Source: Lachnospiraceae bacterium
Lineage (GTDB): Bacteria > Bacillota > Clostridia > Lachnospirales > Lachnospiraceae
Assembly: GCA_910575105.1 (NCBI GenBank)
Contig: CAJTDK010000026.1
Span: forward strand, 1 to 40,827
Direction of reading: 5' to 3'
Length of the DNA: 40,827 nucleotides
In this document: positions 1,852-40,827 of the stretch, piece by piece
Numbering within the stretch: the stretch's first letter is position 1
Layout: every line of letters begins with the position of its first letter
Translations under genes and position numbers: made by a program
Notes under the pieces: generated by a model
What the model was told of the DNA's origin: nothing
Databases searched by the model: none
What the model saw: only the letters and a program-made list of their open reading frames with translations

Positions 1852-1859
1852 TGATTTAA

Positions 1860-4244: not shown

Positions 4245-4255
4245 GAGGGAAGAAG

Positions 4256-8440: not shown

Positions 8441-8456
8441 TTGTGGGGTGTAACAT

Positions 8457-10739: not shown

Positions 10740-10753
10740 TGGGAGGAATTAGT

Positions 10754-12193
10754 GTGGAGGAAAAATTACGAGATTATTTTGAAGAAATGGTTGTATATAA
10801 GGACTTAAAGAACAATAACTTCTTTTCTTCCTTAGGATTACCTGCATTCTTGAGAGATTATTTATTGAAAACTTTTAGTGATGATTATGGGCGTTTTAAT
10901 ATGGATGAGGTATCTGAATTTATAAAGAAGTTCATTCCTAAAAAAGAGGAATGGATGAGGATAAAGAATCAAATTATATATGAAAATGAGACAGTTCAAC
11001 TTTTAACTAAAATAGCTGTTGATATCAATATTAAGACAGGTGAGATTTCATTTGCCTTACCAGATTTTGGGGTAACGGATAAAGAAACCATGATTGAACC
11101 ATCCGTATGGGAACTTTATAAAAATGATCTTATACAAAGTGGTGAGGTTTGGGGGATTATTAAGCTTGGATATCGCCAACCGGATGATACAGTTAAGCCT
11201 AAAATTTCTGGAAAGATTAAACTTGTAGGATTTAAAAATTTCTGTCCATATACTGTGGACTTGGATTATTATAAAGAAATGAGAAGCCATTTTACTACTG
11301 ATGAATGGTTGGATGTAGTATTGGGCGCAATTGATTATAATGCAGAAGGGTATGAAACAGAACTTCAAAAATTGTCAATGTTGACTAGGTTATTACCTTT
11401 TGTAGAAAAGAAAGTAAATATTATTGAGCTTGCTCCAAAAGGAACTGGTAAGAGTTATGTATTTGGACATGTCAGTAAATATGGATTGCTTACTGATGGT
11501 GGAAAAGTTACTAGATCTAAGATGTTCTATGATGCAGCGAGAAGAAAACCAGGATTTATTTGCGGTCCAGATTTTGTGGCAATAGATGAAGTAAAGTTGG
11601 TTAACTTTGGTGATGAAAATGAGATGAGGTCTATTCTGCAAGGCTATTTGGAATATGGAAAGTTCAATGCTAACGGTTATGATGGAGAATCAAATGCAGG
11701 TGTAGTATTTCTTGGCAATATCAAAGAAGAGAATATGAATGAATATGAATATATGCTTGCAGAACTTCCGACACTTTTCCAGGAAACGGCATTGCTTGAT
11801 AGAATTCATGGATTTGTAAAAGGCTGGGACATTCCACGAATGAATGATAGTTTGAAAATTACTGGCTGGGCATTAAATTCTGAATATTTTTGTTCTATTT
11901 TACATGAGCTTAGAAATGATACTAGCTATAGAACGATAGTAGAAAAAATTGTGGAGGTACCAGAACATGCAGATACTAGAGACACAGAAGCAATTAAGAG
12001 AGTAGCAACAGCATATCTAAAGTTATTATTTCCACACGTAAGAAGTATTAACGATATTGATAGAATTGAGTTTACTGATTATTGTTTGACACCAGCAATG
12101 AAGATGCGTAGAATTATCAAATTGCAACAGGGAATGATTGATAGGGAGTATAAAGGAAAAGATGTCCCATTTTTGAAAGTGAAGGAGTTTTAA
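10754..12193 (+). CDS. brxL: BrxL-like AAA+ protein (short, Lon-related class)
   Basis: An AAA+ protein with Walker A (APKGTGKS, residues 227-234) and Walker B (VAIDEVK, Asp278-Glu279), matching the short BrxL class rather than the roughly 680-aa form carrying a C-terminal Lon-like domain. I chose the GTG at 10754 (479 aa) because a strong GGGAGGA site lies at 10741-10747 with 6-base spacing. An ATG at 10739 overlapping the pglZ stop would add five residues but has no ribosome site of its own. BrxL proteins are ring-forming DNA-binding ATPases needed for phage exclusion in some BREX types. Being fourth in the core order fits type 4 BREX. Confidence 0.83.
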   Translation: MEEKLRDYFEEMVVYKDLKNNNFFSSLGLPAFLRDYLLKTFSDDYGRFNMDEVSEFIKKFIPKKEEWMRIKNQIIYENETVQLLTKIAVDINIKTGEISFALPDFGVTDKETMIEPSVWELYKNDLIQSGEVWGIIKLGYRQPDDTVKPKISGKIKLVGFKNFCPYTVDLDYYKEMRSHFTTDEWLDVVLGAIDYNAEGYETELQKLSMLTRLLPFVEKKVNIIELAPKGTGKSYVFGHVSKYGLLTDGGKVTRSKMFYDAARRKPGFICGPDFVAIDEVKLVNFGDENEMRSILQGYLEYGKFNANGYDGESNAGVVFLGNIKEENMNEYEYMLAELPTLFQETALLDRIHGFVKGWDIPRMNDSLKITGWALNSEYFCSILHELRNDTSYRTIVEKIVEVPEHADTRDTEAIKRVATAYLKLLFPHVRSINDIDRIEFTDYCLTPAMKMRRIIKLQQGMIDREYKGKDVPFLKVKEF

Positions 12194-15511: not shown

Positions 15512-17332
15512 ATGCGTGACCCGATTGAGAATATTAGCAAATTGCAAAAACAATTGAATGATTTGCAATTGGAAAACCAAATATTAAAAAATATTCTGGA
15601 TCAGGCAGGAGTATCTTATAAGCAATCGATAGCTCGTCTGAAAGCGGCGGATGAGATAGAAAATTATGATCCGGAGCAGGGAAAAAGAATTATACATCCT
15701 GATGCAATTACGGACGAGATGGCAAATAATTTTTTTGCGAGATTTTGGGGACGCCGGGATGTTTATGCTAAGAGAAATGAAAACAAAGATACTGGAAAAG
15801 CCGGGTACTATACACAATGCAGGAATTTTTGGACAAGTGTGTGCCATAGGAAGTTAAAAACGGGTGTTTCATGTAGAAACTGTGAGTATTATGAATATAA
15901 ACCATTAACAAAGAAAGACATACTTGCTCATTTAAGAGGAAATGCCTACAATGCTTCCGACGTGATAGGGGTGTATCCGCTCCTTAAAAACAATACCTGC
16001 CGTTTCCTGGTATTTGACTTTGATAACCATGAGAAAAATGCGGAGGAGAATGATTTCGCAAATATGGATGATGCGTGGATAGAAGAAGTGGAAGCAATGC
16101 GGAACATCTGTGTTTTGAATGGAATAGATCCACTGGTAGAACGTTCACGTTCAGGACGGGGTGCACATATCTGGATATTTTTTGACAAGCCAATTCCTGC
16201 TTCTTTGGCAAGAAGATTTGGAACAGCATTACTTGATAAAGGTGCTGAACAAGTCAACCTGAAATCCTTTAAGTATTATGACAGAATGCTTCCGGCACAG
16301 GATAAATTGCCGGAAGGCGGACTTGGCAATCTGATAGCTCTTCCGCTGCAGGGAAAGGCATTGAGGAGTGGGAACAGTGCGTTTGTTGACAGTAATTGGA
16401 ATGCGTACAGGGAACAATGGGTAGTGCTATGGAGCAAGCCAAAGCTGTCACAGGAGTTTTTAGAGTTGAAAATAAAAGAATGGTCGTTATTGCTTGGAGA
16501 TATGGAGGAAAGTGAACAAGGAGAAAACCGTGAAAAGCCTTGGGAGAGGAATAGAAAATTTGCGGTAAGTGATGTGGCTGGAAAGCTTAGTATTACATTA
16601 TCAAATGGCATTTATATTGATAATACCAATGTGAAAGCTGCTATGCAAAATAAGATTCGAAGAATGGCTGCAATCAGCAATCCTGTTTATTTCAAAAATC
16701 AGGCAATCGGTACATCTAATTATGATACCTCAAGATGGATTTACTTGGGAGCAGATCATTTGGGCGGATATATAGAAATTCCACGAGGACTCTATGATGG
16801 ATTAATAGATAACTTAGAACAGGTACAAATTGAATATGAAATTCAGGACGAAAGGCAGGCTGGAAGAAGTATTCACGTTGAATTTAAAGGACAATTAAGA
16901 GAAGAACAGGCGCTTGCACTTGAAGGATTAACAAAGTTTGATAATGGAATATTACATGCCGCAACAGCTTTTGGAAAAACAGTTGTATGCAGTGCGTTAA
17001 TTGCCAGGAAAAAAGTAAATACACTTATTTTGTTGGAATCCTCTTCTTTAGTAGAACAATGGCAGGAATCTCTGGAAAAGTTTTTGGAGATAGATGAAGA
17101 ATTACCTACCTATAAGACTAAGATGGGGAGACTTAAAACAAGAAAAAATATAATCGGCAGATTACAGGGTGCACATGACTCCATGACTGGAATTATTGAT
17201 ATTGCTATGGTTGGTTCGTTATGCAAAAAGGGTGAATACCATGATCTGTTGAATCAATATGGACTTGTGATATGCGATGAGTACGGCATAATAGGACAAG
17301 TCAGAAGAAGACCGATTTTAAAGGCTTCCTGA
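15512..17332 (+). pseudogene. TOTE-type archaeo-eukaryotic primase-helicase, 3'-truncated
   Basis: The open frame encodes 606 aa, of which roughly the first 592 look native. A short coiled coil (residues 5-35) precedes a CxxC zinc-like segment (about 125-130) and an archaeo-eukaryotic primase domain with catalytic FDFD (Asp169, Asp171) and SGRGAHIWIFF. A superfamily 2 helicase domain follows, with Walker A TAFGKT (485-490) and motif II ICDE (Asp589-Glu590). Primase plus helicase in this order is the core of TOTE conflict systems, which are predicted NTP-dependent defence systems. Immediately after motif II the family sequence is lost and replaced by a GC-richer tail ending at a stop, so motifs III-VI and the rest of the protein are missing. 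GGGAGGA (about 15500) is the ribosome site. Probably inactive as a helicase. Confidence 0.75.
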
Positions 17333-17609: not shown

Positions 17610-17942
17610 ATGAAGAGATTCAAAGAGCGTAGGAATATGAAGGTCTACGGAATGAGCGGATACAATTACAAGTCAACACCGACCATCATGCTGAAAGGCC
17701 AGTGGCTGAAGGAGCTGGGGTTTGAGATCGGCGGGTATGTCACGGTGAGCTGCGAGAACGGCAGGCTGGTCATTACACCGGATGCGGAGATGGCGGCGAT
17801 GAAGGAAGCAGAGGCGGCTTTCATGAAAAGAGAGACTAAGCTTCTACAGAAGAGGTTTGAAGCTGAAAAAGAGAAGCTGCACGCACAGTTCGTGGCTGAG
17901 AGGAAAGCGGATTATGGCGTTTGCGCGGAACAGGGGGTGTGA
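17610..17942 (+). CDS. symE: SymE-like toxin-family protein
   Basis: A 110-aa protein whose residues 10-57 match the SymE pattern: 'STPTIMLKGQWLKELGFEIGGYVTVSCENGRLVI', an AbrB/MazE-like swapped-hairpin fold. The C-terminal half is a charged helix of about 45 residues. SymE in Escherichia coli is an RNA-targeting or nucleoid-affecting toxin held down by antisense RNA; members on mobile elements are often annotated as type I addiction toxins. AAGGAGGAAATCAG before the ATG is a strong ribosome site. It ends 4 bases before parA and heads an apparent maintenance operon. The structured non-coding stretch upstream could contain its control RNA, which is unproven. Confidence 0.7.
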   Translation: MKRFKERRNMKVYGMSGYNYKSTPTIMLKGQWLKELGFEIGGYVTVSCENGRLVITPDAEMAAMKEAEAAFMKRETKLLQKRFEAEKEKLHAQFVAERKADYGVCAEQGV

Positions 17943-17946
17943 TGAT

Positions 17947-18714
17947 ATGGGAAAGATAATCATGATCGGAGCGATGAAGGGCGGTGTCGGTAAATCCGTT
18001 ACGGCGTTCAATCTGGCGTATTCCCTGCAGAAGAAGGGTAAGAGGGTTCTGGCTGTGGATTTTGATCCACAGTCCAACCTGACCACCTGCTTCGGGGCGG
18101 AAGATGTGGATGTAGCGATCGGGGATCTGATACTGAACGTGATCGAGGATGAAGAGCTTCCGGAGCGTGAGGAATATATCTGGGAGAGGAATAGCGTGAA
18201 CTTCATACCGGCATCCATAGGGCTTTCCGCGGTGGAAGCGAAGCTGAGAATGGAAATGGGTACGGAGAAGATGCTGGCGGCTATCCTGGAGCCGCTGAGA
18301 GATGATTATGACTATATCCTTGTCGATACTTCTCCGTCCCTGGGAGCGCTGACCATAAACGCTATGGCGGCGGCAGATGAAGTAATCGTGACGGTGAATC
18401 CGCAGCTCCTGGCGATGAAGGGACTGCAGGACTTCCTGAAGACGGTGAAGAAGATTAAGAGCCGTATCAATGGGCGGCTGGATGTGGCGGGTATCCTGCT
18501 CACGATGTGCGATGCCAGGACGATATTGTGTAAGACCATTACGGAGCAGGTGGCGGAGACATTCCAGGGACAGATCAGGATCTTCAAGAGCAAGATTCCG
18601 AATACCGTGAAGGTAGGAGAGAGTGTTTACTACAGTGAGCCGCTGATCGAGTACGCGCCGGGATGTAACGCGTGCAAGGCTTATGAGCGGCTGGCGGGGG
18701 AGGTGATCGCATGA
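17947..18714 (+). CDS. parA: ParA-family partition ATPase
   Basis: A 255-aa ParA/Soj-type ATPase with a deviant Walker A, KGGVGKS (residues 11-17), the VDFDPQSNLT motif (about 38-47) and VDTSPSLGALTINAM (Walker B region, about 122). It uses ATP-dependent DNA binding to segregate replicons and many integrative elements. I chose ATG 17947, preceded by GGGGGTG, because the upstream part of the frame only overlaps symE. The stop overlaps the parB start by 4 bases (ATGA). Its GC-rich codons contrast with the BREX genes, indicating a different origin. Confidence 0.93.
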   Translation: MGKIIMIGAMKGGVGKSVTAFNLAYSLQKKGKRVLAVDFDPQSNLTTCFGAEDVDVAIGDLILNVIEDEELPEREEYIWERNSVNFIPASIGLSAVEAKLRMEMGTEKMLAAILEPLRDDYDYILVDTSPSLGALTINAMAAADEVIVTVNPQLLAMKGLQDFLKTVKKIKSRINGRLDVAGILLTMCDARTILCKTITEQVAETFQGQIRIFKSKIPNTVKVGESVYYSEPLIEYAPGCNACKAYERLAGEVIA

Positions 18715-19658
18715 AGGCTAACGGACCTAAGAGGAAGATTTTTGATGCCGTGGATATGATGACAACGGACGTGTCGCAGGCGGAGACCGGAAACGGCCTC
18801 CAAAGCCTGCCGGTAGATAAGATCAAGCCGTTTCACGACCATCCCTTCCACCTGTATGAGGGTGAGCGCCTGGATGACATGGTGGAGAGTATCCGGGAGC
18901 ATGGGGTGCTGAATCCTGTGATTGTGAGAAAGAAGGGCAGGGGCTATGAAATGCTTTCCGGGCATAACCGTCAGAATGCGGCGAGAATCGCGGGGCTTAC
19001 GGAGATACCGGCTATCGTGAAGGAAGGACTGACCGATGAAGAGGCTTATATCTATGTGATCGAGACGAATGTGATCCAGCGGTCCTTTACGGATCTTGCA
19101 CCGAGCGAGAAGGCGGCGGTACTGTCCGCAAGGTATGAGAAGGTTATCAGCCAGGGCAAGAGGAATGATATCCTGCGGGAGATCGAAGAGATCGGAACTT
19201 GTGGACATGATGTCCACAAGTCAAAGAGCCGGGACGGCATTGGTGAGGAATACGAGATGACCGGCAGGAACATCGCCCGGTATATGAGGGTGGACAAGCT
19301 GATCAGGCCATTCAAGGACAGGCTGGATGCCGGAGAGATAACATTGACGGCGGCGGTGGAGCTTTCCTATCTGTCAGAAGAGGAACAGGGCATCGCTGCG
19401 GCAGAGGACAGCCAGATCAATGGAAGCACGGCGAAGGCAATCCGGGCGGCAGCAGGGGAGCTGACCGCTGAGAAGTTGGAAGAGATCCTGCATCCGGCGA
19501 AGAAACCTCTCCCGGCGAGGTCTGTGAGCATTAAGATTCCGGCAGAGGCGGAAGAAAAGTATTTCTCCGGGATGAAGGCAAGGGAACGGACGGATCTGGT
19601 CATGAAGGCTCTGGACGCATGGTTTGCCGGGAAGGAGGCTGCCTATGTTCAGCAATGA
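18711..19658 (+). CDS. parB: ParB-family partition protein
   Basis: A 315-aa ParB/Spo0J-type protein. The N-terminal CTPase/nuclease-like domain contains 'LPVDKIKPFHDHPFHLYEGE' (residues 25-44), 'IREHGVLNPVIVR' and 'YEMLSGHNRQNAARIAG' (the GHRR-type motif), followed by ETNVIQRSF and a helix-turn-helix around residues 180-205. It should load on a centromere-like site and partner with ParA. The gene itself contains a 23-base palindrome at 19198-19220, which might serve as that site. Translationally coupled to parA by a 4-base overlap. Confidence 0.93.
   Translation: MKANGPKRKIFDAVDMMTTDVSQAETGNGLQSLPVDKIKPFHDHPFHLYEGERLDDMVESIREHGVLNPVIVRKKGRGYEMLSGHNRQNAARIAGLTEIPAIVKEGLTDEEAYIYVIETNVIQRSFTDLAPSEKAAVLSARYEKVISQGKRNDILREIEEIGTCGHDVHKSKSRDGIGEEYEMTGRNIARYMRVDKLIRPFKDRLDAGEITLTAAVELSYLSEEEQGIAAAEDSQINGSTAKAIRAAAGELTAEKLEEILHPAKKPLPARSVSIKIPAEAEEKYFSGMKARERTDLVMKALDAWFAGKEAAYVQQ
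19198..19220. repeat. perfect palindrome inside parB, possible parS-like site
   Basis: CTTGTGGACAT and its exact reverse complement flank a single G. It encodes the residues TCGHDVHK of ParB. It is unlike the canonical chromosomal parS, but long perfect palindromes next to parAB genes are typical of partition sites. Function is inferred. Confidence 0.4.
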
Positions 19659-20911: not shown

Positions 20912-22147
20912 ATGCCTAAAACATATAATTTTATTGACCTATTCGCAGGTTGCGGTGGGCTCAGCGAGGGTTTTTATGCTCAAGGTTTTAATGCTTTGTG
21001 TCATGTGGAAATTGATCCGTTCGCATGTGAGACACTAAGAACCCGCATGAAGTATTATGGATACAAGAATGAAGAGGATGCTGTCTTAGAAGCAGATATA
21101 ACCTCAAAAGATATTCTTGCAAAAATAAAGAAAGTTGTTGGGGATCAAACTGTTGATATTATTATTGGAGGACCTCCATGTCAAAGTTTTTCTCCGTTGG
21201 GAAAGGCAAAAGATGATAATAATATGCAAAATGATCCGAGGAACTATCTGTTCGAGAATTATGTAAAAGTATTAAATCATTTCAAGCCAAAGATGTTTGT
21301 TTTTGAAAATGTAACTGGTTTACTTGATACAGAGGTAAAGGGGAAGAGCATTTTCAAAATGATACTACGCAGGCTCAGAAGAAATTATAAGGTCGCGAGC
21401 AAGGAAGAGATGATAGTTCTTAATGCTACTAATTATGGTGTCCCTCAGGAAAGAAAGAGGGTCATCTTAATTGGCGTGCGAAAAGATATAGATATGGCTG
21501 TAGAAGATGTATATAGTGCAATAACAAAAACTCACTACTTACCTGGGGCGAGGAAGGAAGCCAAAGAAGGATTAAAAAAATATGTAACAGTGAAAGATGC
21601 TATTGGAGATATGCCTACATTGCAACAGGGGCAGGGAGAAAAATCTGTAGATTATCCTAATACTTATGCCTCATGTAATGCTTATGTTAAGAAGATCAGG
21701 AAAAAAACTGATAAGAAGTTACGTGATCACGTCGCTCGGATGAACAATGAGAAAGATGTGGAACGTTATCGTGTAATGGCTGAAAACCATTGGAACTTTC
21801 TGGAACTATTGGAGTATAGGCCTGATTTAGGACATGAAAAGAAAAGAGTGTTTTTCAATAGTTATAAGGTTCAGTGGCGGGATATGCCTGCAAGAACCAT
21901 AATTGCGCATCTGCATAAGGATGGGAATCAATTCATTCATCCTGATCCTGATCAGGGAAGAAGTATAACAGTTAGAGAAGCTGCAAGGTTACAATCGTTC
22001 CCGGATGATTTTGTGTTTGAAGGATCCAGATCAGAGCAGTTTAAGCAGATAGGAAATGCGGTTCCTCCGATGTTGGCTGAGGCAATAGCAAAAGCCGTGA
22101 AAGCCAAATTAGATAGTATAGAACAGGAGCAGGACAATAATGTTTGA
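20912..22147 (+). CDS. C5-cytosine DNA methyltransferase 1 (LlaJI-like system)
   Basis: A complete 411-aa 5-methylcytosine methyltransferase. Motif I is IDLFAGCGGLSEGF (residues 8-21), motif IV GGPPCQSFSPLG with catalytic Cys90, motif VI FENVTG, motif VIII QERKRVILIG, and motif X IGNAVPPMLAEAI near the C-terminus. It protects host DNA from the partner nuclease. Its stop overlaps the start of the second methyltransferase by 8 bases. Two C5 methyltransferases followed by McrB-like and LlaJI-like subunits match the LlaJI layout, where each enzyme modifies one strand of an asymmetric site. Specificity here is unknown. Confidence 0.95.
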   Translation: MPKTYNFIDLFAGCGGLSEGFYAQGFNALCHVEIDPFACETLRTRMKYYGYKNEEDAVLEADITSKDILAKIKKVVGDQTVDIIIGGPPCQSFSPLGKAKDDNNMQNDPRNYLFENYVKVLNHFKPKMFVFENVTGLLDTEVKGKSIFKMILRRLRRNYKVASKEEMIVLNATNYGVPQERKRVILIGVRKDIDMAVEDVYSAITKTHYLPGARKEAKEGLKKYVTVKDAIGDMPTLQQGQGEKSVDYPNTYASCNAYVKKIRKKTDKKLRDHVARMNNEKDVERYRVMAENHWNFLELLEYRPDLGHEKKRVFFNSYKVQWRDMPARTIIAHLHKDGNQFIHPDPDQGRSITVREAARLQSFPDDFVFEGSRSEQFKQIGNAVPPMLAEAIAKAVKAKLDSIEQEQDNNV

Positions 22148-23681
22148 TTCGGTTTCGGAATACCGTTTATGGGATAACGCAAAGAAGCGTTTTTATAAAG
22201 AAAAAATAGAGGTTTTTATTAAGACTGTTCATGCAGTATCTCAAATATATAATTTGAATAGCGTGCAAACTGATGAGGATGCTTGCATAAATCTATTTGT
22301 AGAAATGGGGATAATAAAATGCGCTGATGATTTTACTCTTCTTCAGCCGATATTAAAAAGAGAACTCTATACAGAGCTTTTAGCGTGTGGAACATTGGTG
22401 TCTACGAATAGAGCAATCTTTGATCCATATTTATGCAAATTGAACGAGACTAAGAGGCTTGAGCTACAAGAGATAGAAAAGAACAGTAATAAGATTAAGC
22501 TTGTAGACATGTTCTGTGGGGCAGGAGGATTAAGCCTTGGTTTTATACATGAGGGTTGTCGGGTTGTATTTGCTAATGATGTAGATGAATTATGTATGGA
22601 AACATATAAGTATAATCATCCTGAAACGCCAGAGGAATTGATGCGATGTGAGGATATTAAAAAACTGGTATCCAACATAGATAGTTATATCACGGAAGAT
22701 GTAGACATAGTGATTGGGGGACCTCCATGCCAGGGATTTAGTTCAGCAAACAAACATCATAGAGTAATCAATGATCCAAGGAATGAGTTGTATAAGTATT
22801 ATATCAAGGTCGTAGAAAGTCTGGCGCCAAAGATTGTTGTTATGGAAAATGTGCGTGGGATGCTTAAAGTTGCGGATCAGGTGGTTGAGGATTATGAAGC
22901 TATTACTGTAACTAAGGATGGAAAGCAATATAGCTATTCTGTAGCATACCGCTTACTTAATTCTGCTGATTTTGAAGTTGCTCAAAGTAGGGAGAGGTTG
23001 ATATATATAGCAATAAGAAATGACATTGTTGAGGAATCTGGTCAAACTCCAGAAAACATATTTGAAGCGATTGAGCGGAGTAATGAAAATCATGAGGTGT
23101 ACAATCTGTCTGCAGCACTTGAAGGTGTAAGGGAGTTAGAACCACCTGAGACGATGGGGGTTGGAGAAGTAGATACTGAAGAAGGTGGAAGAAAGATAGA
23201 TGTTAATCCTTTTAACGGTCGGGAGAATGAATATTTGAGGCTAATAAATGATGATAGGGAAATGGATTTAGTGTTTAATCACAAAGCAAGATATTGCAGT
23301 CCTCTTAATCATGAGATTTATCGGCGTCTTGAACCGGGGGATGATGCAACAAATGAAAAAATAGTAGATATATTTCCGTATGCTCATAGAAATGATAAGT
23401 TCAAAGATAAGTATTATCGATTGTATGCTGACAGGCCTTGTAGAACGATAACCGCACATTTGCGTGCAGATTGTCATTCTCACATTCATCCTACAGAAGC
23501 AAGAACGTTGACTCCGCGTGAAGCGGCAAGGGTTCAGTCGTTTCCTGATGATTACTTGTTTTTAGGACCCTATTTGAAGACATATATTCAGATTGGTAAT
23601 GCTGTTCCGCCTTTAATGGCGCGTGGGATTGCAAGAGCTTTAATTAGGTTGATCAAAAAGGAAGATGCAAATGAAGATTGA
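22140..23681 (+). CDS. C5-cytosine DNA methyltransferase 2 (LlaJI-like system)
   Basis: A 513-aa 5-methylcytosine methyltransferase with an N-terminal extension of about 115 residues not found in the first enzyme. Motif I is VDMFCGAGGLSLGF (about 121-134), motif IV GGPPCQGFSSAN with catalytic Cys197, motif VI MENVRGM, motif VIII QSRERLIYIA, and motif X IGNAVPPLMARGI. The stretch between motifs VIII and IX, which sets target specificity, is unrelated to that of methyltransferase 1, so the two probably modify different cytosines. It overlaps the next gene by 11 bases. Confidence 0.95.
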   Translation: MFDSVSEYRLWDNAKKRFYKEKIEVFIKTVHAVSQIYNLNSVQTDEDACINLFVEMGIIKCADDFTLLQPILKRELYTELLACGTLVSTNRAIFDPYLCKLNETKRLELQEIEKNSNKIKLVDMFCGAGGLSLGFIHEGCRVVFANDVDELCMETYKYNHPETPEELMRCEDIKKLVSNIDSYITEDVDIVIGGPPCQGFSSANKHHRVINDPRNELYKYYIKVVESLAPKIVVMENVRGMLKVADQVVEDYEAITVTKDGKQYSYSVAYRLLNSADFEVAQSRERLIYIAIRNDIVEESGQTPENIFEAIERSNENHEVYNLSAALEGVRELEPPETMGVGEVDTEEGGRKIDVNPFNGRENEYLRLINDDREMDLVFNHKARYCSPLNHEIYRRLEPGDDATNEKIVDIFPYAHRNDKFKDKYYRLYADRPCRTITAHLRADCHSHIHPTEARTLTPREAARVQSFPDDYLFLGPYLKTYIQIGNAVPPLMARGIARALIRLIKKEDANED

Positions 23682-24348
23682 GAGTTTTATAAAAAGGTTA
23701 AATGCTACTGAAGTCGGCGAGGGAGTTACAAACGATACCTATATTGCAATTCCCAGAGATGTTGACTTGTCGAATATTTTAGTCAACCAAGAGGCAATGA
23801 CCATCTATGATAGAGTCGGTGGAGTTCTATATACGCCTGCTAACTCAAACATTAAATATGTTCAGACTGGCCAAAACAATCAAGAAAGAATCTCTGGATT
23901 GGGACAGTATTTCAGAAGCGTGGATGCAAAGGTTGGCGATGAGATACTGATAGAGCGTGTTGTTGATGGCGATGAAAGCAAACTGTATCTTGATTTTAGG
24001 CACCGGAATGTGATCGTTTTCCAGAAGAATAAAGACTGGGTAGAGATTCTTACACCAGATAGAATGACTCCGTATGCTCAGGGCAACGATTATACAGTTG
24101 ATGTGACATATTTGAACAGAAATGTCGAGCTGTATGTTAAATATCTTGGACAAAAGATGAAGAAAAAAACATCTCCATCGGATACAGCTGCATTTGATCT
24201 GCTTATCGAAAATAAGAGTATTCTGGGTGATTATGAATACCTTGATTACATTGAGATTGGTATAGAAAATGATAAGAAACGATTAGCCAGGATGAAAACT
24301 TATTTTCTTTCCTTTGTAGGCATGATGGAGAATGGAGGCCAGCAATGA
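23671..24348 (+). CDS. unrecognised RM-linked protein, possibly a B3-like DNA-recognition subunit
   Basis: A 225-aa protein between the methyltransferases and the McrB-like gene. I chose ATG 23671, since AAGGAAG (23658-23664) is correctly spaced from it and not from the ATG two codons earlier. The first half looks beta-rich; 'ISGLGQYFRSVDAKVGDEILIERVVDGDESKLYLDF' (about residues 72-108) resembles the end of a B3/EcoRII-N-like DNA-binding barrel. The rest is mixed, with a helical C-terminus. No nuclease motif is evident. Its start overlaps methyltransferase 2 and its stop overlaps the McrB-like gene by 4 bases, so it is an integral operon member. The B3 suggestion is a reading by eye. Confidence 0.6.
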   Translation: MKIESFIKRLNATEVGEGVTNDTYIAIPRDVDLSNILVNQEAMTIYDRVGGVLYTPANSNIKYVQTGQNNQERISGLGQYFRSVDAKVGDEILIERVVDGDESKLYLDFRHRNVIVFQKNKDWVEILTPDRMTPYAQGNDYTVDVTYLNRNVELYVKYLGQKMKKKTSPSDTAAFDLLIENKSILGDYEYLDYIEIGIENDKKRLARMKTYFLSFVGMMENGGQQ

Positions 24349-25928
24349 ACTATTATATTTTTATTCTTGAAGAGAAGATAAAATCATTTTCACTGATAGG
24401 GCATGGCGAAAAGTGCGCTGTAGCAATGATGTTAAAGGGTTTTCCGAATCCGCTTAATGGAATTGTAGAGGGAGACAAGGTTGTTGGCTTTGTTTCCGGG
24501 AATGTACGTAAATTCTCATATTTGTTTAATGCAGGGTTTGATGAGTCATCGAACCAGTTTTATTTTGAAAAAACTCTTGAAATGAAATCCGGAGCCAGCC
24601 TTGAAACGGTATCCCCGGAAATAAGGGAGTTGATAGAATCGAAGGAGCAAACGGAATCTTTCATTCAAATTGATAAAGATATGTACAACCAGATTATGGA
24701 GGCTATGCTTACCGGAATCGAGAACATGGATGAATTTTCTCAAACGGAATCTTATGAAAAGATAGATGAAGAAAACCGGATAGCAGACGGGACAAATGTG
24801 CTTTTGTATGGTGTTCCGGGGTCTGGAAAAAGCTGGACCATAGCAGAAGAGTATTGCAAGGACGAAGATAGAATGGAAAGGCTTGTTTTCCATCCGGATT
24901 ATATGTATTCGGATTTTGTTGGTCAGATTCTCCCGGTGGCTAAGACTGGGAAGGTAGAGTATAAGTTTGTTCCAGGTCCGTTCACAAAGATATTGAGCAA
25001 AGCATATCATGACCCTGGAAATCCTTATTATCTGATTATAGAGGAAATAAACAGAGGCAATGCACCTGCGATTTTCGGAGATGTATTCCAGCTTTTAGAC
25101 AGGATTACGGAAGATAAAGATGGGTTTAAGGCAGGAACAAGTGAATACCCTATTTCTAATGAGAACATAGCAAAAGCTGTTTATGGTGACAAGAACATAA
25201 AGGTAAGGATACCGTCCAATCTTTCGATAATAGGAACCATGAATACGTCGGATCAGAATGTATTTACTTTGGACAATGCATTTCAACGAAGATGGCATAT
25301 GAGGCTGATCCCGAATAAATTTGATGATCATCCATATGCGATGAAGGGTATTTTGGATACAACTGTCTCTTGGCGGGGGTTCTGTGAAGTAATAAATACG
25401 GAAATACTACGAAGAGATAGTGTTGCATCTTCAGAAGATAAGCGGCTGGGTGCTTATTTTGTGGCATTAAGTGATCTAATCTGGAACCAAGAGGAAGATC
25501 AAATTCAGGATAAAAAATCAAAAGAATATATAACAGCAAAACATAAGAACGCTCACTTTGCGGAGAAAGTTTTGAAATACCTTTGGGATGATGCGTTCAA
25601 ATTTAATCATCCAGATGTTTTTGTTACATCTAAGGATGGAAAAGATGTTAATAGCTTGGAAGTGTTAATTGAATGCTTCTCTTCCGCCAGAGGCAATAAA
25701 CGATTTGATGTTTTTGAGGATACGATAAAGGAAGCTCTTCTGGAAACAAGACCAGCAATTTCGGATGCTTCAGATGTAGCTAATAATGGTGGCGAGGATG
25801 TCATATCTGATGATGGTGAAACGGCATCAGAAGTAATAGACGGAGGTACAGTTACAACATCTTCAGATGAACAGGTAGTAGATGTTGATGGCGGAAATGC
25901 TGCTGGTATAAATGGAAGTAGTAATTGA
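24345..25928 (+). CDS. McrB-like AAA+ GTPase subunit of the LlaJI-like restriction complex
   Basis: A 527-aa motor subunit. The N-terminal 130 residues ('GDKVVGFVSGNVRKFSYLFNAGF') resemble an EVE/PUA-like recognition domain. The AAA+ core has Walker A GVPGSGKS (156-163), the McrB-type Walker B/signature IIEEINRGNAPAIFGDVFQL (about 231-250) and IGTMNTSDQN (about 318), where MNTxD is characteristic of GTP-using McrB proteins. The C-terminal 70 residues are acidic and Gly/Ser-rich, probably disordered. In McrBC-type enzymes this subunit translocates DNA with GTP and drives cleavage by the nuclease partner encoded next. Confidence 0.9.
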   Translation: MNYYIFILEEKIKSFSLIGHGEKCAVAMMLKGFPNPLNGIVEGDKVVGFVSGNVRKFSYLFNAGFDESSNQFYFEKTLEMKSGASLETVSPEIRELIESKEQTESFIQIDKDMYNQIMEAMLTGIENMDEFSQTESYEKIDEENRIADGTNVLLYGVPGSGKSWTIAEEYCKDEDRMERLVFHPDYMYSDFVGQILPVAKTGKVEYKFVPGPFTKILSKAYHDPGNPYYLIIEEINRGNAPAIFGDVFQLLDRITEDKDGFKAGTSEYPISNENIAKAVYGDKNIKVRIPSNLSIIGTMNTSDQNVFTLDNAFQRRWHMRLIPNKFDDHPYAMKGILDTTVSWRGFCEVINTEILRRDSVASSEDKRLGAYFVALSDLIWNQEEDQIQDKKSKEYITAKHKNAHFAEKVLKYLWDDAFKFNHPDVFVTSKDGKDVNSLEVLIECFSSARGNKRFDVFEDTIKEALLETRPAISDASDVANNGGEDVISDDGETASEVIDGGTVTTSSDEQVVDVDGGNAAGINGSSN

Positions 25929-25945
25929 GGTGATTTAGTTCAGGT

Positions 25946-27235
25946 ATGGGCGACTTAGGATTGAATTTGCATTTTAGGTGTCGAGTAGATACTGGAGAAG
26001 AGGGCGACCGGTTTGTTGGAATCAAAGCTGATTCCAATGGAACGCTGGTCTATTTTCCTATGGGTTATAGATTACCTCAAGACGAACAAGAACTTCAACG
26101 CGAAGTTCTGCAGCTGATAAATGTCCTTCAAGAGTTTATGCAGAAAAAAGACAAAGTTCTGCATATGCCTAAAAATGATGCACCTCAATCAGTGGATTTT
26201 CCTATCAACGCATACATGAATATTATTCGTGATTATAGAAAGCGAAAGGGATATTATAAGGAAAAGGAAAGAGTACGAAAAACCAGTGATCACGGACGTA
26301 TAGATTGGGCAACTTCATTGAAGAAAAACGTTGCATATTATCAGGAAGATGGATCTCCTTTCTTCGATAAGTATACTGTCGTTGATATGAAGCCGAATGA
26401 GAGAGAATGGATTACAAAAATTCATAAATATTGTGTATATGAAAGCTATCAGAAGTTAGGCTGCTTTTTTATACCGGATCTTCCTGCGGATCCACATATT
26501 CCGCTTGATGCACGGATGTTTCTTTCGATATTGAATAGTAAGCTTCGTAATACCAATAATAGTGATGAAAAGCTTCTCTTTCAATCCATGATTGCAATGC
26601 TTAAATACAAGGATGAAGAGACAAAAGAAAGACAGTTCTTTTTCGGGACAGATCGGTTTGAATATGTATGGGAAAACTTGATAGACACTGTATTTGGAAT
26701 TAGAAATAAAGAGGACTATTTTCCACGCACATACTGGAATTTGCGGCAGGGTAATAATAAGAGAAACAATGCATTGGAGCCAGATACGATTATGCTTTGC
26801 AATGACAAGATATATGTTTTGGATGCGAAGTATTATCGATATGGAATTACTGGGGAAGCGAAGCATCTTCCCAATTCTTCTTCAATTAACAAACAGATTA
26901 CTTATGCTGAATATATTCAGGCGAATGATGAGTTGAGGAAAATTCATGGACAAGATGTGCCAATATATAATGCATTCCTAATGCCGTTTAATATGATGGA
27001 AAATGAGTTTTCCATAGATGTTCCGTTTGGTAATATCGGAGAAGCAAAAAGCACATGGAAACATGATAAATATGATTACGAACGTGTCCAAGGTATAGTA
27101 GTTGATATTCATTATCTAATGCATAAATACTATGGCTCACATAAAAAAATCACACAAGAAATAGCGGACATGATTGATTCCGCGATTGAAGAAAACAAGT
27201 CATTAACAGTAGAGGCTGTTGGCTCCGGCAATTAA
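25946..27235 (+). CDS. LlaJI-family restriction endonuclease subunit (McrC-like)
   Basis: A 429-aa nuclease subunit. A PD-(D/E)xK active site is visible as EPDTIML (Asp280) and VLDAKYY (Asp293, Lys295), with the McrC/LlaJI-type context 'WENLIDTVFG' upstream and 'INKQITYAEYIQA' downstream. It should be the cutting subunit working with the McrB-like GTPase. The ribosome site is not ideal: GAGGTG (25926-25931) is 14 bases from the ATG. The gene ends inside a terminator and overlaps the convergent zinc-finger gene by 4 bases. Confidence 0.88.
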   Translation: MGDLGLNLHFRCRVDTGEEGDRFVGIKADSNGTLVYFPMGYRLPQDEQELQREVLQLINVLQEFMQKKDKVLHMPKNDAPQSVDFPINAYMNIIRDYRKRKGYYKEKERVRKTSDHGRIDWATSLKKNVAYYQEDGSPFFDKYTVVDMKPNEREWITKIHKYCVYESYQKLGCFFIPDLPADPHIPLDARMFLSILNSKLRNTNNSDEKLLFQSMIAMLKYKDEETKERQFFFGTDRFEYVWENLIDTVFGIRNKEDYFPRTYWNLRQGNNKRNNALEPDTIMLCNDKIYVLDAKYYRYGITGEAKHLPNSSSINKQITYAEYIQANDELRKIHGQDVPIYNAFLMPFNMMENEFSIDVPFGNIGEAKSTWKHDKYDYERVQGIVVDIHYLMHKYYGSHKKITQEIADMIDSAIEENKSLTVEAVGSGN

Positions 27236-35826: not shown

Positions 35827-35936
35827 TTTATAATAAACATAGATTGGTATAGTCGTTGAAAGTAATGCAGGTCATTAAAGATAGGCGGCTTATATCCTGC
35901 CTGATATTAAATAGGTTTGGGATAGGGGGACTAACG

Positions 35937-36665
35937 ATGAAAAATAATGATGAAACAATTAAATCTGAAATTGGAACGGAAGCTGCTTGGAGGGGGTTTT
36001 CTACACAAACACTATATATTGCAAAGCGATTATTGGAAGCAGAAAACAATGTTCAGTTATATCCTGAGCAAGTTGAAGACTTAATGATTATTGAAAACGA
36101 TAAGATAATTGAGCTGGTTCAAGTTAAAAATTTGTCAAATGATTTATCTTTATCAGATTTATCACCGAAAAAGAATGATTCTTTTTTTAGAAGGTGTTTA
36201 ACGTATAAAGATAGTAATATTCGTTTGAGAATAGTATCGTTTGGAAATATTGGTTTGGAATTTCGGAAAATGCTACAGACAAAAAATAGAAGAAAAAGTA
36301 GTGTCTTTGACAAATTATTATCATATGGATATGAAGATAGTGATGTTTTTTGGTTGTTAGAGCATTTGGAAATTGAAAAGGTAGATGAGTTGGAGGTTGA
36401 AAATAGCATTAAAGACGAACTCAAGAAATATATAGAAGTGATAGCGGCATACAACTTAGTAAATGATAGCTTAATCTATTACATATATAAACTTTCTAGG
36501 GAAAAAGGGTATACATCTAAAAAGTTATGGGAGGAAAGAATAAGCAATATTGTTAAAAATATAATGGCAATAGATTCGGTGAAAAAACAATATCAAAAAA
36601 CAATCGTTCCATTGTGTGACTATAAAAGCAATAAAACAAGAGAGGAGTTATTTTCTTGCTTATAG
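35937..36665 (+). CDS. N-terminal fragment: DUF4297/Cap4-like nuclease domain
   Basis: The 242-aa first fragment as written in the sequence. It contains the whole nuclease-like domain (residues 10-75) and a helical linker. The frame runs off at 36651-36654; after ARG-GLU-GLU-LEU-PHE it adds three residues and stops, whereas the neighbouring frame continues the family-like sequence LAYRMGVNAHPDH. Confidence 0.7.
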   Translation: MKNNDETIKSEIGTEAAWRGFSTQTLYIAKRLLEAENNVQLYPEQVEDLMIIENDKIIELVQVKNLSNDLSLSDLSPKKNDSFFRRCLTYKDSNIRLRIVSFGNIGLEFRKMLQTKNRRKSSVFDKLLSYGYEDSDVFWLLEHLEIEKVDELEVENSIKDELKKYIEVIAAYNLVNDSLIYYIYKLSREKGYTSKKLWEERISNIVKNIMAIDSVKKQYQKTIVPLCDYKSNKTREELFSCL

Positions 36666-37038
36666 AATGGGAGTTAATGCCCATCCGGATCATATTAGAA
36701 ATAACTGTGATTTATGGAGAGAAAGATGGATTAAAGAAATTGATAGGAGATTTATCAAAAATAATATTGTTCTTATAAAAGGGGCATCAGGTCAGGGAAA
36801 GTCTACATTGGCATATAGGTATCTTATTGATACATATCCAGAATTGAATGTTATGTGTATTCAGAAACTTCTTTCAGAAGAACAGGCAATAGATATACTT
36901 AGTATTCTTAGGGGATTGAATGATAGAAAAGATATTGTAATATATATGGATGTAGAACCTTATGATATTCAATGGTTGTGGCTTTGTGAAAAGGCAATGG
37001 AATTTGGAATAGACATAAAAATACTTGTTTCTATCTAG
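36616..37038 (+). pseudogene. middle fragment: P-loop NTPase start
   Basis: Open frame carrying LIKGASGQGKSTLAYRYL, a Walker A motif, then IVIYMDVEPYD. The GTG at 36616 is only where the frame opens; the authentic continuation starts near 36652. It stops at TAG 37036-37038 while the next frame carries on with SREEDFQRSP, typical of the sequence after a STAND Walker B. Confidence 0.6.
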
Positions 37039-39385
37039 AGAAGAAGATTTTCAGAGAAGTCCTATAGACTATTCAAAACATAATTTTGAGGAAATATCAT
37101 TGAATTTTTCAAAGGACGAAGCAAAAGAAATATATAATATGTATTCAAATAGTACATACTTGTCATTTGATGATGCATGGAAGTCGTTTGGTGAAAAAGG
37201 ACCATTAATGGAATATATTTTTATGCTTAATGAATCAAAGACTTTGGTTGCAAGAATAAATGCTCAAATAGAAAATATAGTTAACCATGAGGTACAGGCA
37301 GATACATGGCTTGAATGTTTAGCAATTATATCTTTGGGAGGAATTCATAATAATAGTATATCTTTAAATAGTATGTTTCAAAAAGTAGAATGCAAGCAAA
37401 AAACCAAAATGATTAAACATTTTGAAAAAGAATACTTTATTAAAATCACACAAAATAATACATATATAGAGTGTTTACATGTATTAAGGGCAAGGATTAT
37501 ATACAATTTGTTGATGGAGAGAGGAATATTTGATAAGGAAAATATTTTAATGAAAACTCTTGGGGTAATAGAACATAATGCAACACAGATACTAATAGAA
37601 TATGTTTATGGGACGAGAATAACAGAAGATTTCATTAATAAGATTGCAAATATAGAATATTTGAGTATTGAAGTATATGCTGATATTGTAAAAGCATTGC
37701 TGTGGTGTGAGATATATTATTACTATCGAATAAATAAAAAAGTTATTGAAGAAGGTGATCTGCTATTTAATAATCAATTTATGTTTCTGGGTAATACAGA
37801 TATTACAGGTTTATTGGAAATTGATACCTTACAGGATATATGCAAGATGTTTAATAATGTAAAACCAGATTTTGAGGAACAAATGAGGAATCAATTGAGT
37901 AGATTACCTATGCTCAAGTTGGATTATAGATTTTTGGATTGTTTTTTTGAACTTACAAATAAGACGATAAACAATTTGTATGAAATTAATGAAGAGAACT
38001 TGACGGCATGGGGATATGTTTTATTCTGGCTTTCATATAGAAATTTTATTTTAGAACCGATTTCGGAACCACATGTTGATTGGAAATTAAATATTGAAGA
38101 AACCTTAAATTATGTATTAGGCATTAGTAAGCAAGGTTGGCTTAATATGCGGGATAGCATTGTCAAAGTAATAATGCCATCTATTTTGCTAGAAAATGGA
38201 GTTATTTACTATGAAATTAAAAGTAATGCAGTGTCTGCAATAATTAATGTCCTGCTGGGTAATGATCAGGAACAACCACATTCACGGATTATGAAATTGA
38301 TAAGTATTTTTCAGCGTTCATTTCCAGAAAAGAAAAAATATAATGTTAAGATTGTTGGATATTCTTTCATGGAGGAGGTGGAAATTCCAGATACAGAAAA
38401 AAATATTTCACAAGAGCATTTACCGTATGTTTGGATTACACAATTAAATAGATGTTTTGGGAATATGCAGAAATACCATAATCTTCCTCAAAATTGGAAA
38501 GATATATACGAAAGAATAATTAATGCAAGAAATGCTATTTTAGATTATTTTATAATTCTGCTTGATGCTGTAGAAAAATTATATAGAAACGAAAATGCTA
38601 GGATTTTCAGTTCGGACAATTATAAGAAAAAGAAGGTAATAGCATATAATCTTACTAAAGAAAATCCATATATTGAGCCAATGTGTGCTGTAGACAGGTA
38701 TGGACTTCGTAATGATAATTATGTTGTCGAGGATAATCATCAGAAATATTCTATTGAATGGCATCAAGAAAGCGATAAAGAACATATATCATATTTGTGT
38801 CATCAATATTTTTCAAATGTTCATGCTTTTTGTGAAAACTGTGAAAATATATTAGTAGATGCTAAAACCAAAAAACAGCAAGGGCAAAAGTCTAGGATTG
38901 CATATTATAATTTAATTCAAGCATTAATGAAAATAGATGCATTCCAAGAAAAATTTGATGATTATTTTAGCTCGTTTGGTATTTTTACCAATAGCAAACG
39001 GGAATTAGATATTTTAGAAAAAACAGCAGCAGTTTTTACAATTGTTTTTTTCAATAATTATGCGAGAGAAAAATCTATTTGCTATAGAGCAAAGGAAAGC
39101 GTGCGTTCTACAGAACGAAAAATAGTACAATTTATGAAAAGTGGTATCAATATGCTGCCAGGTGTTACAAGGAAAATAGGCGAAATTAATCAACCTGTAG
39201 TAGATGTGGAAATTTTCCAATTTGAAAAATTTCTTTTACAATTCTATAATTCACTAAAGAAGTTAGGGAAGGATATGGACAATACATCATTTTCAGGATA
39301 TTTATTAAAAAACATTTCAGTAAATTACATGTCAATCCTATTTGTGATGGAGAGAATACATTTCCAAGTATTGATATTCCGGTAA
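37025..39385 (+). CDS. large C-terminal fragment: rest of NTPase and helical sensor region
   Basis: A 786-codon frame opening at a TTG without ribosome site. It begins with the end of the NTPase (SREEDFQRSPIDY) and is otherwise alpha-helical and rich in Lys, Asn and Ile. No known repeat was recognised. If the frameshifts are real, this part would not be made except by ribosomal slippage. Confidence 0.6.
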   Translation: MFLSREEDFQRSPIDYSKHNFEEISLNFSKDEAKEIYNMYSNSTYLSFDDAWKSFGEKGPLMEYIFMLNESKTLVARINAQIENIVNHEVQADTWLECLAIISLGGIHNNSISLNSMFQKVECKQKTKMIKHFEKEYFIKITQNNTYIECLHVLRARIIYNLLMERGIFDKENILMKTLGVIEHNATQILIEYVYGTRITEDFINKIANIEYLSIEVYADIVKALLWCEIYYYYRINKKVIEEGDLLFNNQFMFLGNTDITGLLEIDTLQDICKMFNNVKPDFEEQMRNQLSRLPMLKLDYRFLDCFFELTNKTINNLYEINEENLTAWGYVLFWLSYRNFILEPISEPHVDWKLNIEETLNYVLGISKQGWLNMRDSIVKVIMPSILLENGVIYYEIKSNAVSAIINVLLGNDQEQPHSRIMKLISIFQRSFPEKKKYNVKIVGYSFMEEVEIPDTEKNISQEHLPYVWITQLNRCFGNMQKYHNLPQNWKDIYERIINARNAILDYFIILLDAVEKLYRNENARIFSSDNYKKKKVIAYNLTKENPYIEPMCAVDRYGLRNDNYVVEDNHQKYSIEWHQESDKEHISYLCHQYFSNVHAFCENCENILVDAKTKKQQGQKSRIAYYNLIQALMKIDAFQEKFDDYFSSFGIFTNSKRELDILEKTAAVFTIVFFNNYAREKSICYRAKESVRSTERKIVQFMKSGINMLPGVTRKIGEINQPVVDVEIFQFEKFLLQFYNSLKKLGKDMDNTSFSGYLLKNISVNYMSILFVMERIHFQVLIFR

Positions 39386-39432
39386 GAAATTTTCTTATTT
39401 ACAAAGAATTTGATAAATTTTTAAGTAAAGTA

Positions 39433-39894
39433 TTGCCAAATGATGAAAAAGATAATTGGGAAATTATAAATTCATCTCAGGCAGCAATTCAGGGGATAGG
39501 GGCAATATCCTCACTTAAAATATTATTTGTCTATGCATCGGAAATAGAGCATGAGTTGTTAGATAAACAAGAAAGTACTATTATGAAGGATGTTTATTGC
39601 CTATATCGGAGAAAGGTGATGAACTTAATCGTTGATGCGGCAAATATATTAAAAAGTGTAGCGGAATATATTTTTGCAAATGCAATTATTAATATTTCTG
39701 AAATAAAAGAGGCTAATATGGCATTGGAAGAGGTTGCAGATCAACTATGTGATGCTATTTTTGATATGGCAAAAGAATTATCTTACGAAGAAATAGCAAA
39801 TTTTTTTGAGGAACTTACAACACAATTTTGTAAGTATGTAGATGCGTCTGGCGTTGTAATTGCAAATGGAGAGATTGATAATATGTACCAATAA
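39433..39894 (+). pseudogene. C-terminal tail fragment of the same gene
   Basis: Frame of 153 codons from a TTG with no ribosome site. Reading this frame back to 39313 gives KLHVNPICDGENTFPSIDIP, which joins smoothly to the previous fragment if the A6 run at 39307-39312 is given a seventh A. It is helical and acidic, and ends the gene at TAA 39892-39894. Confidence 0.6.
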
Positions 39895-40192
39895 TTTTTC
39901 TTTGTGGTAGTATTGTTAGAGTTGACGTAATACTCGGAGTGTAAAATATCATCTGGTATTTGTTCATTGACTGTTTCGTGTTTGTTTTTATTTTTGCTTT
40001 ATCTAAATCGTGTCAAAATGAGAAGTGAAAGGGTCAATGAAGTGATTAGGCTTAATAAATAATATCAGAATTACGGCAGAGGAGATTGTGCAGAGGGAAC
40101 TGATATATGTGTGATTCTGATTGGGACGGGAAACTGCCCCTATTTTTTGAGAAAATTTGTTTTGTCCTGATAATTTTCTAGGAGCCCTCAGT
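39895..40192. other. AT-rich non-coding stretch before the repeat array
   Basis: I see no gene, promoter pair or terminator of quality here. Short frames lack ribosome sites. It separates the broken nuclease-NTPase gene from the heptamer array. Confidence 0.5.
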
Positions 40193-40679
40193 GATATAGA
40201 ATTGATATAATACTCATCCATTTCGATATAGCAATGATGTAGAAATCGGAAAAATGATATAGTAACGATATAGTGTCTGCAACCATGAAAATTTTCAGCG
40301 ATATAGAAATGATATAGGAATCGAAAAAACGATATAGGTATGATGTAGGAACGGTGTAGAAATGATATAGTTTTTGGACATTCACATAAAGCATCAAACA
40401 GGGTGTCCGTAGATTGGATTTGTACAAAATATCCTATCCGTTGGTAGTAAATCTTGTGTCCGCATTTAGGGGTACATTATATGCCAGGATGATATAGAAA
40501 TGGTGTAGATTCTGAAGATTTTGGTGTAGGAATGGTGTAGAAATCAGAAATAATGATGTAGAAACGGTGTAGGCTTTTTGCAGGGAGATTTTTCGATGAT
40601 ATAGAAATGATGTAGAATCTCCCGATTTTGATATAGGAATGATATAGACAATGCCCAAAATGATGTAGGAATGATGTAG
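40193..40679 (+). repeat. helically phased array of 24 GATRTAG heptamers
   Basis: Twelve copies start at 40193, 40204, 40225, 40236, 40256, 40267, 40300, 40311, 40331, 40342, 40353 and 40364, and twelve at 40491, 40502, 40523, 40534, 40555, 40566, 40598, 40609, 40630, 40641, 40662 and 40673. The forms are GATATAG, GATGTAG, GGTGTAG and one GATATAA, all on the plus strand, usually followed by AAAT or GAAY. Spacing is 11 within pairs and 20-21 between most pairs (33 or 32 in two places), so all sites face the same side of the helix. The 11-base step excludes a peptide-repeat origin. It is probably an operator or recognition array for a protein encoded nearby, perhaps just beyond the window. Confidence 0.85.
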
Positions 40680-40798
40680 ATTTCATATTTTATGCTATTT
40701 AGTGACTGCTGATTAAGTCAATGGTTTTTTAAGTACATATAGAAAATTCTTTTCTCGATCCAATAAAATTTAACAGATGTATTTTCAAATCACTATCC

Positions 40799-40827
40799 CT
40801 TTTACAGTTCTCTAAAAACTGTAAAAA
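40799..40827. other. AT-rich inverted repeat at the window end
   Basis: TTTTACAGTT and AACTGTAAAA form a 10-base stem around CTCTAAA. It could terminate a gene reading leftward from beyond the window, or be an operator. The window ends here. Confidence 0.35.

Follow-up and report, generated by a model that had tools for sequence, protein, structure and literature searches.

The combination of a partition system with a centromere near the origin of transfer (oriT) is already known from one kind of ICE. In the SXT/R391 elements, the ParM/ParR-type system srpMRC has its site srpC located, together with oriT, between srpMR-int and mobI; srpC contains repeats, and SrpR is described as having no homology to known ParR proteins (PMC4489591). 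On plasmids of C. perfringens, the ParR of a given ParMRC family binds the parC direct repeats of its own family and not those of another one, and this sets compatibility; in pCW3, parC comprises 192 bp with four direct repeats of 17 bp (PMC9426499). The partition proteins of R1 parMRC promote conjugation (PMC4949242), and in the case of NAH7, ParR is a homologue of KorA and binds to the region of oriT (PMC12421886). SGI1 mimics the parS of IncC; this mobilizable element bears copies of the centromere of its helper and relies on the partition system of the latter (PMC10954446). Chromosomal ParMs were described in 2025 (PMC12270681).

The locus considered here lies at the right end of a stretch of 40,827 nucleotides from a Lachnospiraceae bacterium, referred to as the window, which is an entire contig (CAJTDK010000026.1). 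It holds an array of short repeated sites that is likely to be a centromere of the parC type, belonging to a type II (ParM/ParR) partition system carried by Clostridial ICEs and placed beside oriT. The features of this end are the following:

40034–40111, + strand: 3'-terminal remnant of a 147-aa gene (26 codons, 77% identical to the related locus L126, E 1e-8)
40193–40370, + strand: cluster 1, 12 heptamers, mostly GATATAG, in two three-pair blocks
40193, 40225, 40256 / 40300, 40331, 40353, + strand: pair starts of cluster 1
40371–40490, no strand: inter-cluster spacer, within a 509-bp stretch 89.4% identical to the related locus L125
40491–40679, + strand: cluster 2, 12 heptamers, GATATAG, GATGTAG and GGTGTAG mixed, in two three-pair blocks
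40491, 40523, 40555 / 40598, 40630, 40662, + strand: pair starts of cluster 2
40680–40698, no strand: right flank of the array, cut here
40699–40827, no strand: end of a repeated insertion sequence (IS), with near-identical copies elsewhere in the genome

The array is real. Its 24 sites (40193–40679), all on the + strand, comprise 23 exact GRTRTAG heptamers (12 GATATAG, 6 GATGTAG and 5 GGTGTAG) and one GATATAA variant at 40204, and the minus strand of the segment has no heptamer. In 2000 dinucleotide shuffles of the segment the exact heptamers reached a mean of 0.41 and a maximum of 4 versus the 23 observed, and exact pairs separated by N4 a mean of 0.0005 and a maximum of 1 versus 12; over the whole window GATRTAG occurs 32 times versus 11.5 expected, and 0 of 100 shuffles got that high. 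The initial annotation of this DNA had reported 24 GATRTAG sites with pair spacing and a single orientation, all of which was found again, except that the consensus is GRTRTAG. It had also given the steps of 11 bp within pairs and 20–21 bp between pairs, and these are present, together with steps of 32–33 bp between three-pair blocks and a 127-bp step from cluster 1 to cluster 2; it missed the higher order in which each cluster is made of two blocks of three pairs with starts 107 bp apart (40193 to 40300 in cluster 1, and 40491 to 40598 in cluster 2). Three consecutive 11-bp steps occur at 40331–40370, and cluster 2, with a span of 189 bp, shows its best lag at 32 bp. The earlier view that the array is neither CRISPR, nor coding, nor a simple tandem repeat was supported. 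There is no sign of a structured RNA either: the best Rfam E was 6.4, and the folds of the GATRTAG arrays as RNA are no better than those of shuffles (z 0.12, 0.18 and 1.50).

A pattern scan of genome contigs gave 102 stretches, from which 14 relatives were kept by their heptamer rhythm (L048, L050, L057, L061, L069, L074, L083, L084, L100, L102, L125, L126, L129 and L133); four of them are labelled Lachnospiraceae and the rest Clostridia, Eubacterium, Lawsonibacter, D16-36, D16-51 and uncultured bacterium, among others. The 88 stretches that were dropped are mostly ones from Bacteroidota with plain 11-bp repeats. Loci of this sort (L043–L144) carry GATATAG repeats in plain 11-bp steps in Flavobacterium, Chitinophaga, Weeksella and others, with an unrelated rhythm. 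Three more loci, L149 and the degenerate pair L146/L147, came from a DNA search, which makes 17 in all. The scan of viral contigs returned six matches, none with the rhythm, and a search of phages returned zero; likewise, the rhythm was found neither elsewhere in the window's own genome nor in the genomes of 97 other relatives. The initial annotation had named, as the outcome contrary to its reading, arrays scattered without gene association; this is not what the relatives showed. They fall into three settings:

Class I, ICEs: L050, L100, L149 and L061 (extensions L328/L329)
Class II, mobilizable elements (IMEs): L048, L057, L074, L083, L102, L129 and L187
Class III, islands: the window, L069, L084, L125, L126 and L133

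In class I the order is RadC (PF04002), DUF3991/TOPRIM (PF13154/PF13155), array, putative oriT block, a protein of about 190 residues, a NikA/MobC-like protein and a MOBP relaxase (PF03432); the ICE L186 additionally has a T4 coupling protein, a TraG-type ATPase and an NlpC/P60 protein. In each member of class II a divergent relaxase of the MobA/MobL or Mob_Pre type is found beside the array, and contigs that extend far enough also show an Xre-type HTH gene and a tyrosine integrase; L188 was put in this class by its flanking sequence alone, and a relaxase was looked for there and none was detected. Class III islands have the array and the oriT block (the latter absent in the cut window), and no relaxase was found in the DNA fetched. 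The TOPRIM gene was not found in the IMEs and islands carrying the array. Several islands (L327, L332 and L126) have a 409-aa Pfam-less protein after the oriT block, split in L126 and L327. The protein of about 190 residues, Pfam-less and with a DDxIDxVCEWNYE-like motif, lies between oriT and mobC in most ICEs of the family, at these places among others:

L050:3002-3673, L100:6674-7255 and L149:2010-2558: protein of about 190 residues

The oriT block is present in 11 of the 17 loci, and the other six are class II loci. L125, with 89.4% identity to positions 40193–40701, continues where the window is cut, with a block that contains the inverted repeat GTTTTGTGACACAAAAT and then GCGTATCTGGC; the same right flank continues into the putative oriT block in L069, L125 and L126. 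The IS that starts at about 40699 severs the array of the window from its oriT side. Several further copies of this IS are found at other contig ends of the same genome, and their left flanks differ from one another; therefore, the array is not part of the IS. Since the contig ends inside an IS copy, the extension past 40827 that had been suggested earlier is impossible. Two relatives also carry ISs, with rve and Mu-type transposases, in the array region, i.e., between the two clusters of L126 (2120–3600, rve) and at positions 4016–7570 of L061, which makes this region a recurrent insertion place.

The same architecture was found with other letters. In ICEs the array sits between the DUF3991/TOPRIM gene and the putative oriT of the MOBP type, which consists of an inverted repeat and a nic-like motif and is followed by mobC and the relaxase gene; the array is always on the same side of this oriT, within a few hundred bp. 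A search with the TOPRIM protein gave matches in 16 of 150 family genomes, and 27 gaps were inspected (25 places, L191 and L186). The oriT motif was present in 15 of these, and in 14 of the 15 a repeat array was seen by eye, with differing letters; L211 has the oriT and no array by eye. The Enterococcus plasmid L191 (NZ_CP079928.1) holds the TOPRIM-gap-mobC-relaxase module, and its gap contains repeats of the GTGATAGC type, which form two blocks of three and have a period of 32 bp; this stretch also holds predicted fexA and optrA. Spacings of 32, 32, 64, 32 and 32 bp recur in L191 to L194 and L197. When lags of 20–60 bp were evaluated in 25 ICE arrays and the two clusters of the window, the best lag was 31–33 bp in 22 of the 27 and lag 32 had z > 3 in 20; L189, L227, L228, L283 and L284 prefer another lag, and L284 shows no 32-bp signal. 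Several of the other-letter arrays are built of inverted repeats that could fold as single strands. The gap of a distant R. albus plasmid relative (L339, ParM-ParR-mobC-relaxase) has no array. The place of the array between the TOPRIM gene and the mob operon would suit an operator for a transcription factor that controls one of these operons; nevertheless, 24 sites in a fixed 3+3 rhythm go far beyond the need of an operator, the array persists in islands whose DNA, as far as read, has no mob operon, and ISs split it in L126 and L061, so that this explanation is highly improbable.

Upstream of the TOPRIM gene a ParM-like gene was found in 11 of the 15 ICEs that were read in this direction; in the other four the stretches, of 3.0–7.1 kb, run into the contig end. 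The protein matches PF17989 and PF21522 in the relatives and ALP12 (PDB 4apw) with an E of 9e-7, and its plasmid homologues are annotated as ParM/StbA; in two annotated plasmids a ParM-ParR-like pair is directly ahead of mobC and the relaxase gene. Among 397 genomes of the family, 100 contain a ParM-like gene at E 1e-30 or better. Directly 3' of it there is a small ORF in all 11 ICEs, and in most, not all, of the 50 ParM-bearing stretches (L298 has no small ORF, and L271, L282 and L300 have odd lengths). Conserved residues in the product of this ORF are an H and an R close to the N terminus and a W close to the C terminus; its profile gave no credible match in Pfam, NCBIfam or PDB, and its predicted structure is of low confidence (mean pLDDT 48.3). 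Gene order, size, the N-terminal pattern and the conserved C-tail suggest its likeness to ParR. Of the features of a type II system, the relatives have an actin-like ParM, a small gene directly downstream that would encode the adaptor, and repeated sites, but the array is not directly upstream of parM: this usual parC place has no array, with at most five of the array 7-mers, and oriT lies 3.8–14.5 kb downstream of the ParM gene in the 11 ICEs measured. The arrangement is therefore a variant and not a standard parMRC locus.

The N end of the ParR-like protein reads RFS[MLF]KK in the three ICEs with GATRTAG arrays and in 0 of 22 others; these three ICEs are closely related, with about 92% identity in ParM, so that the shared motif is not independent. 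The same motif is found in three ParR-like genes of islands bearing the GATRTAG array, namely the orphan genes of L126, L133 and L331 (truncated; from the contig of L069), with RFSLKK or RFSFKK. The C-tail of the orphan proteins of L126 and L133 resembles that of the ICE proteins. In L126 about half a kilobase separates the end of the orphan gene from the array, with the 147-aa gene between the two, and in L133 and L331 other DNA intervenes.

The remainder of the window is rich in defence genes. Positions 133–12193 contain an operon with a PAPS-reductase-domain protein, a large Pfam-less protein, DUF7862-7864 and BrxL (BREX-like) proteins; a TOTE-type archaeo-eukaryotic primase with a helicase domain is at 15512–17332, and an LlaJI-like restriction-modification set of two C5 methylases, an AAA protein and an endonuclease at 20912–27235. 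Four adjacent or overlapping ORFs at 35856–39894 give weak matches to Cap4 nuclease and STAND ATPase, and are perhaps a broken defence gene. A type I ParA/ParB pair is at 17857–19655, with a ParB 31% identical to a ParB-like protein encoded just upstream of the orphan ParR-like gene of L126. Defence genes also occur near the array in some relatives, e.g., hsdR in L069 and a C5 methylase in L126, as would be expected if a nearby defence gene used the array for recognition or sensing, which was the proposal of the initial annotation. However, these genes differ from locus to locus, and the listed IMEs and ICEs have the array beside mobilization genes instead; the relatives tie it to oriT, relaxases and ParM/ParR. 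A sensing role is thus extremely unlikely, and the defence genes near the array, in the window as in these relatives, are cargo. The other suggestion made at that time, of a helically phased protein-binding array for a polymerising regulator, agrees with a ParR/ParM centromere.

The letters of the array and the ParR-like protein diverge together. From 51 ParM stretches, 25 yielded both an array and a ParR-like protein, and 26 were left out, many of them since the contig or stretch ended first. Two pairs of close ICEs were compared over the stretch from ParM downstream. In pair A (L279 and L281) the ParR-like protein has the lowest identity of the 12 matched ORFs, 51%, versus 90% for ParM-like, 90% for TOPRIM, 88% for RadC-like and 86% for MobC; in pair B (L268 and L285) it is again the lowest, of 15 matched ORFs, with 64% versus 91%, 91% and 99% for ParM-like, TOPRIM and MobC. 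In both pairs the array letters have been replaced, and the shared repeated 6-mers amount to 0.23 (A) and 0.28 (B) versus 0.69–0.98 in the six most alike pairs. The identity of the N end of ParR is 60% versus 79% for the C-tail in pair A, and 58% versus 67% in pair B. Over all pairs of 24 of the 25 ICEs (L264 was left out), the Spearman correlation with array similarity was 0.44 for TOPRIM, 0.36 for the N end of ParR, 0.27 for its C-tail, 0.19 for ParM and 0.09 for MobC (p 0.16). Given ParM, the partial rank correlation over 21 ICEs was 0.40 for the ParR N end (permutation p 0.0005), 0.33 for TOPRIM, 0.23 for the C-tail and 0.04 for MobC (p 0.35); in the same 21 ICEs the ParR N end given TOPRIM retained 0.27, and TOPRIM given the ParR N end 0.15. 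The correlation of TOPRIM is as linkage would give, and this protein was ruled down mainly because it is 90–91% identical in pairs A and B despite the replaced letters.

These comparisons bear on two further explanations. The TOPRIM gene adjoins the array in L050, L061, L100 and L149, ending at or just before it, and from this position its primase-like product could use the array as iterons or single-strand initiation sites of ICE replication, for which the inverted repeats of several arrays could provide folds. This possibility is remote, since TOPRIM, the only adjacent replication-type protein, kept its sequence in the two pairs while the letters were replaced, the GATRTAG arrays fold like shuffles as RNA, and the IMEs and islands carry the array where no TOPRIM was found. 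The second explanation is less remote, although still unlikely: a relaxosome protein other than ParR might bind or wrap the DNA beside nic, and aid nicking and the docking of the coupling protein. TraK-like and TraM-like proteins are relaxosome proteins of such kind. The constant side of the putative oriT and the short distance to it agree with an accessory array of oriT, and the 189-bp span of cluster 2 suits wrapping. Against it, MobC, the obvious candidate, was rejected as the array binder for its lack of co-variation with the array letters, with near-identical strand residues beside different arrays, and TOPRIM is disfavoured by the same two pairs. This explanation and the ParR reading are compatible, as ParR at oriT could do both jobs.

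If the array is the centromere, ParR-like dimers would occupy it pair by pair along a single face of the DNA, with one helical turn between the heptamers of a pair, and each block of 12 sites would be covered by a nucleoprotein cluster. Through its conserved C-tail, ParR would capture and cap ParM filaments; these would move the excised circular element to the daughter cells, and they may in addition present oriT to the machinery of transfer. As the array and the relaxase gene flank oriT on opposite sides, the array would be expected to enter the recipient early. Because the array letters and the predicted DNA-binding end of ParR change together, the array may act as a compatibility tag, and the mobilizable elements and islands that carry the same tag would probably do so to use the ParM and transfer machinery of a resident ICE.

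The genomes of such passengers were inspected for a partner. Among the seven genomes with a class II array, three (G343, G345 and G348) have a ParM-like gene with 93% or more identity to the one in L185, followed each time by an RFS[ML]KK protein; G341, G346 and G347 have no ParM-like gene at E 1e-20, and G349 has a distant one only. The same was found in three of six genomes with islands (G343, G344 and G345), whereas G350 and G351 have distant ParM-like genes only and none was found in the genome of the window. A ParM partner is thus often, not always, present, and most of these genomes are draft assemblies. The arrays of the ICEs are nearly pure, i.e., GATATAG with RFSMKK (L185 and L230) or GGTGTAG/GATGTAG with RFSLKK (L189). 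Class II arrays start with GATATAG and end with GATGTAG/GGTGTAG in L048, L057, L074, L083 and L129, and are short and mostly GATGTAG/GGTGTAG in L102, L187 and L188; among the islands, the window, L125, L126 and L069 have mixed arrays, and L084 and L133 pure or nearly pure GATATAG ones. From this, a piracy of centromeres at oriT can be tentatively envisaged, in which a swappable, ParR-bound centromere fused to oriT serves as an identity tag, and composite arrays of both types would let passengers ride the actin motor of either ParR allele of resident ICEs, both to be segregated and to be delivered to the transfer pore; the idea of two alleles depends on one ICE of the second type (L189). These unrelated passengers would be IMEs with MobA/MobL-type relaxases as well as defence islands that carry oriT and the array and sometimes also an orphan ParR; the C-tail of this ParR is taken as still fitting the ParM of the ICE.

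On this basis, the array of the window is a predicted composite, double-length GATRTAG centromere at the edge of a defence-rich island. The copy is probably severed or helper-dependent, because no ParM was found in its genome, although an empty answer from a single genome says little; the same applies to the oriT block, a 193-aa protein and the right flank of L125, for which this genome gave no match. A ParM for this array, if there is any, must come from elsewhere.

If the centromere reading is true, many Clostridial ICEs carry an actin-based segregation system with its centromere at the transfer origin, and a single DNA site joins vertical and horizontal inheritance. It would then be possible to tell from the array letters which elements can share a cell and which passengers can ride which ICE, compatibility could be read from the sequence alone, and the mobility of defence-gene islands that lack a relaxase of their own in the DNA read would be explained.

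A literature search limited to titles and the openings of abstracts, and hence a weak one, gave no description of such arrays in Clostridial ICEs. The array described here differs from that of R1 parMRC in that it adjoins oriT (PMC4949242), and from the ParMRC systems of C. perfringens, which are plasmid-borne and not tied to the oriT of an ICE (PMC9426499). SGI1 uses a type I parABS system in Gammaproteobacteria, whereas here the array would be of type II and the use of a helper is inferred only (PMC10954446). The system of SXT/R391 is likewise ICE-borne and of the ParM/ParR type, with a centromere-like site near oriT; the SXT/R391 centromere is directly upstream of srpM, and here the array and oriT are 3.8–14.5 kb downstream of the ParM gene (PMC4489591). 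Also unlike SXT/R391, the ICEs described here are Clostridial and have a MOBP relaxase, the letters of the array vary by element, and copies of it are carried on IMEs and islands (PMC4489591).
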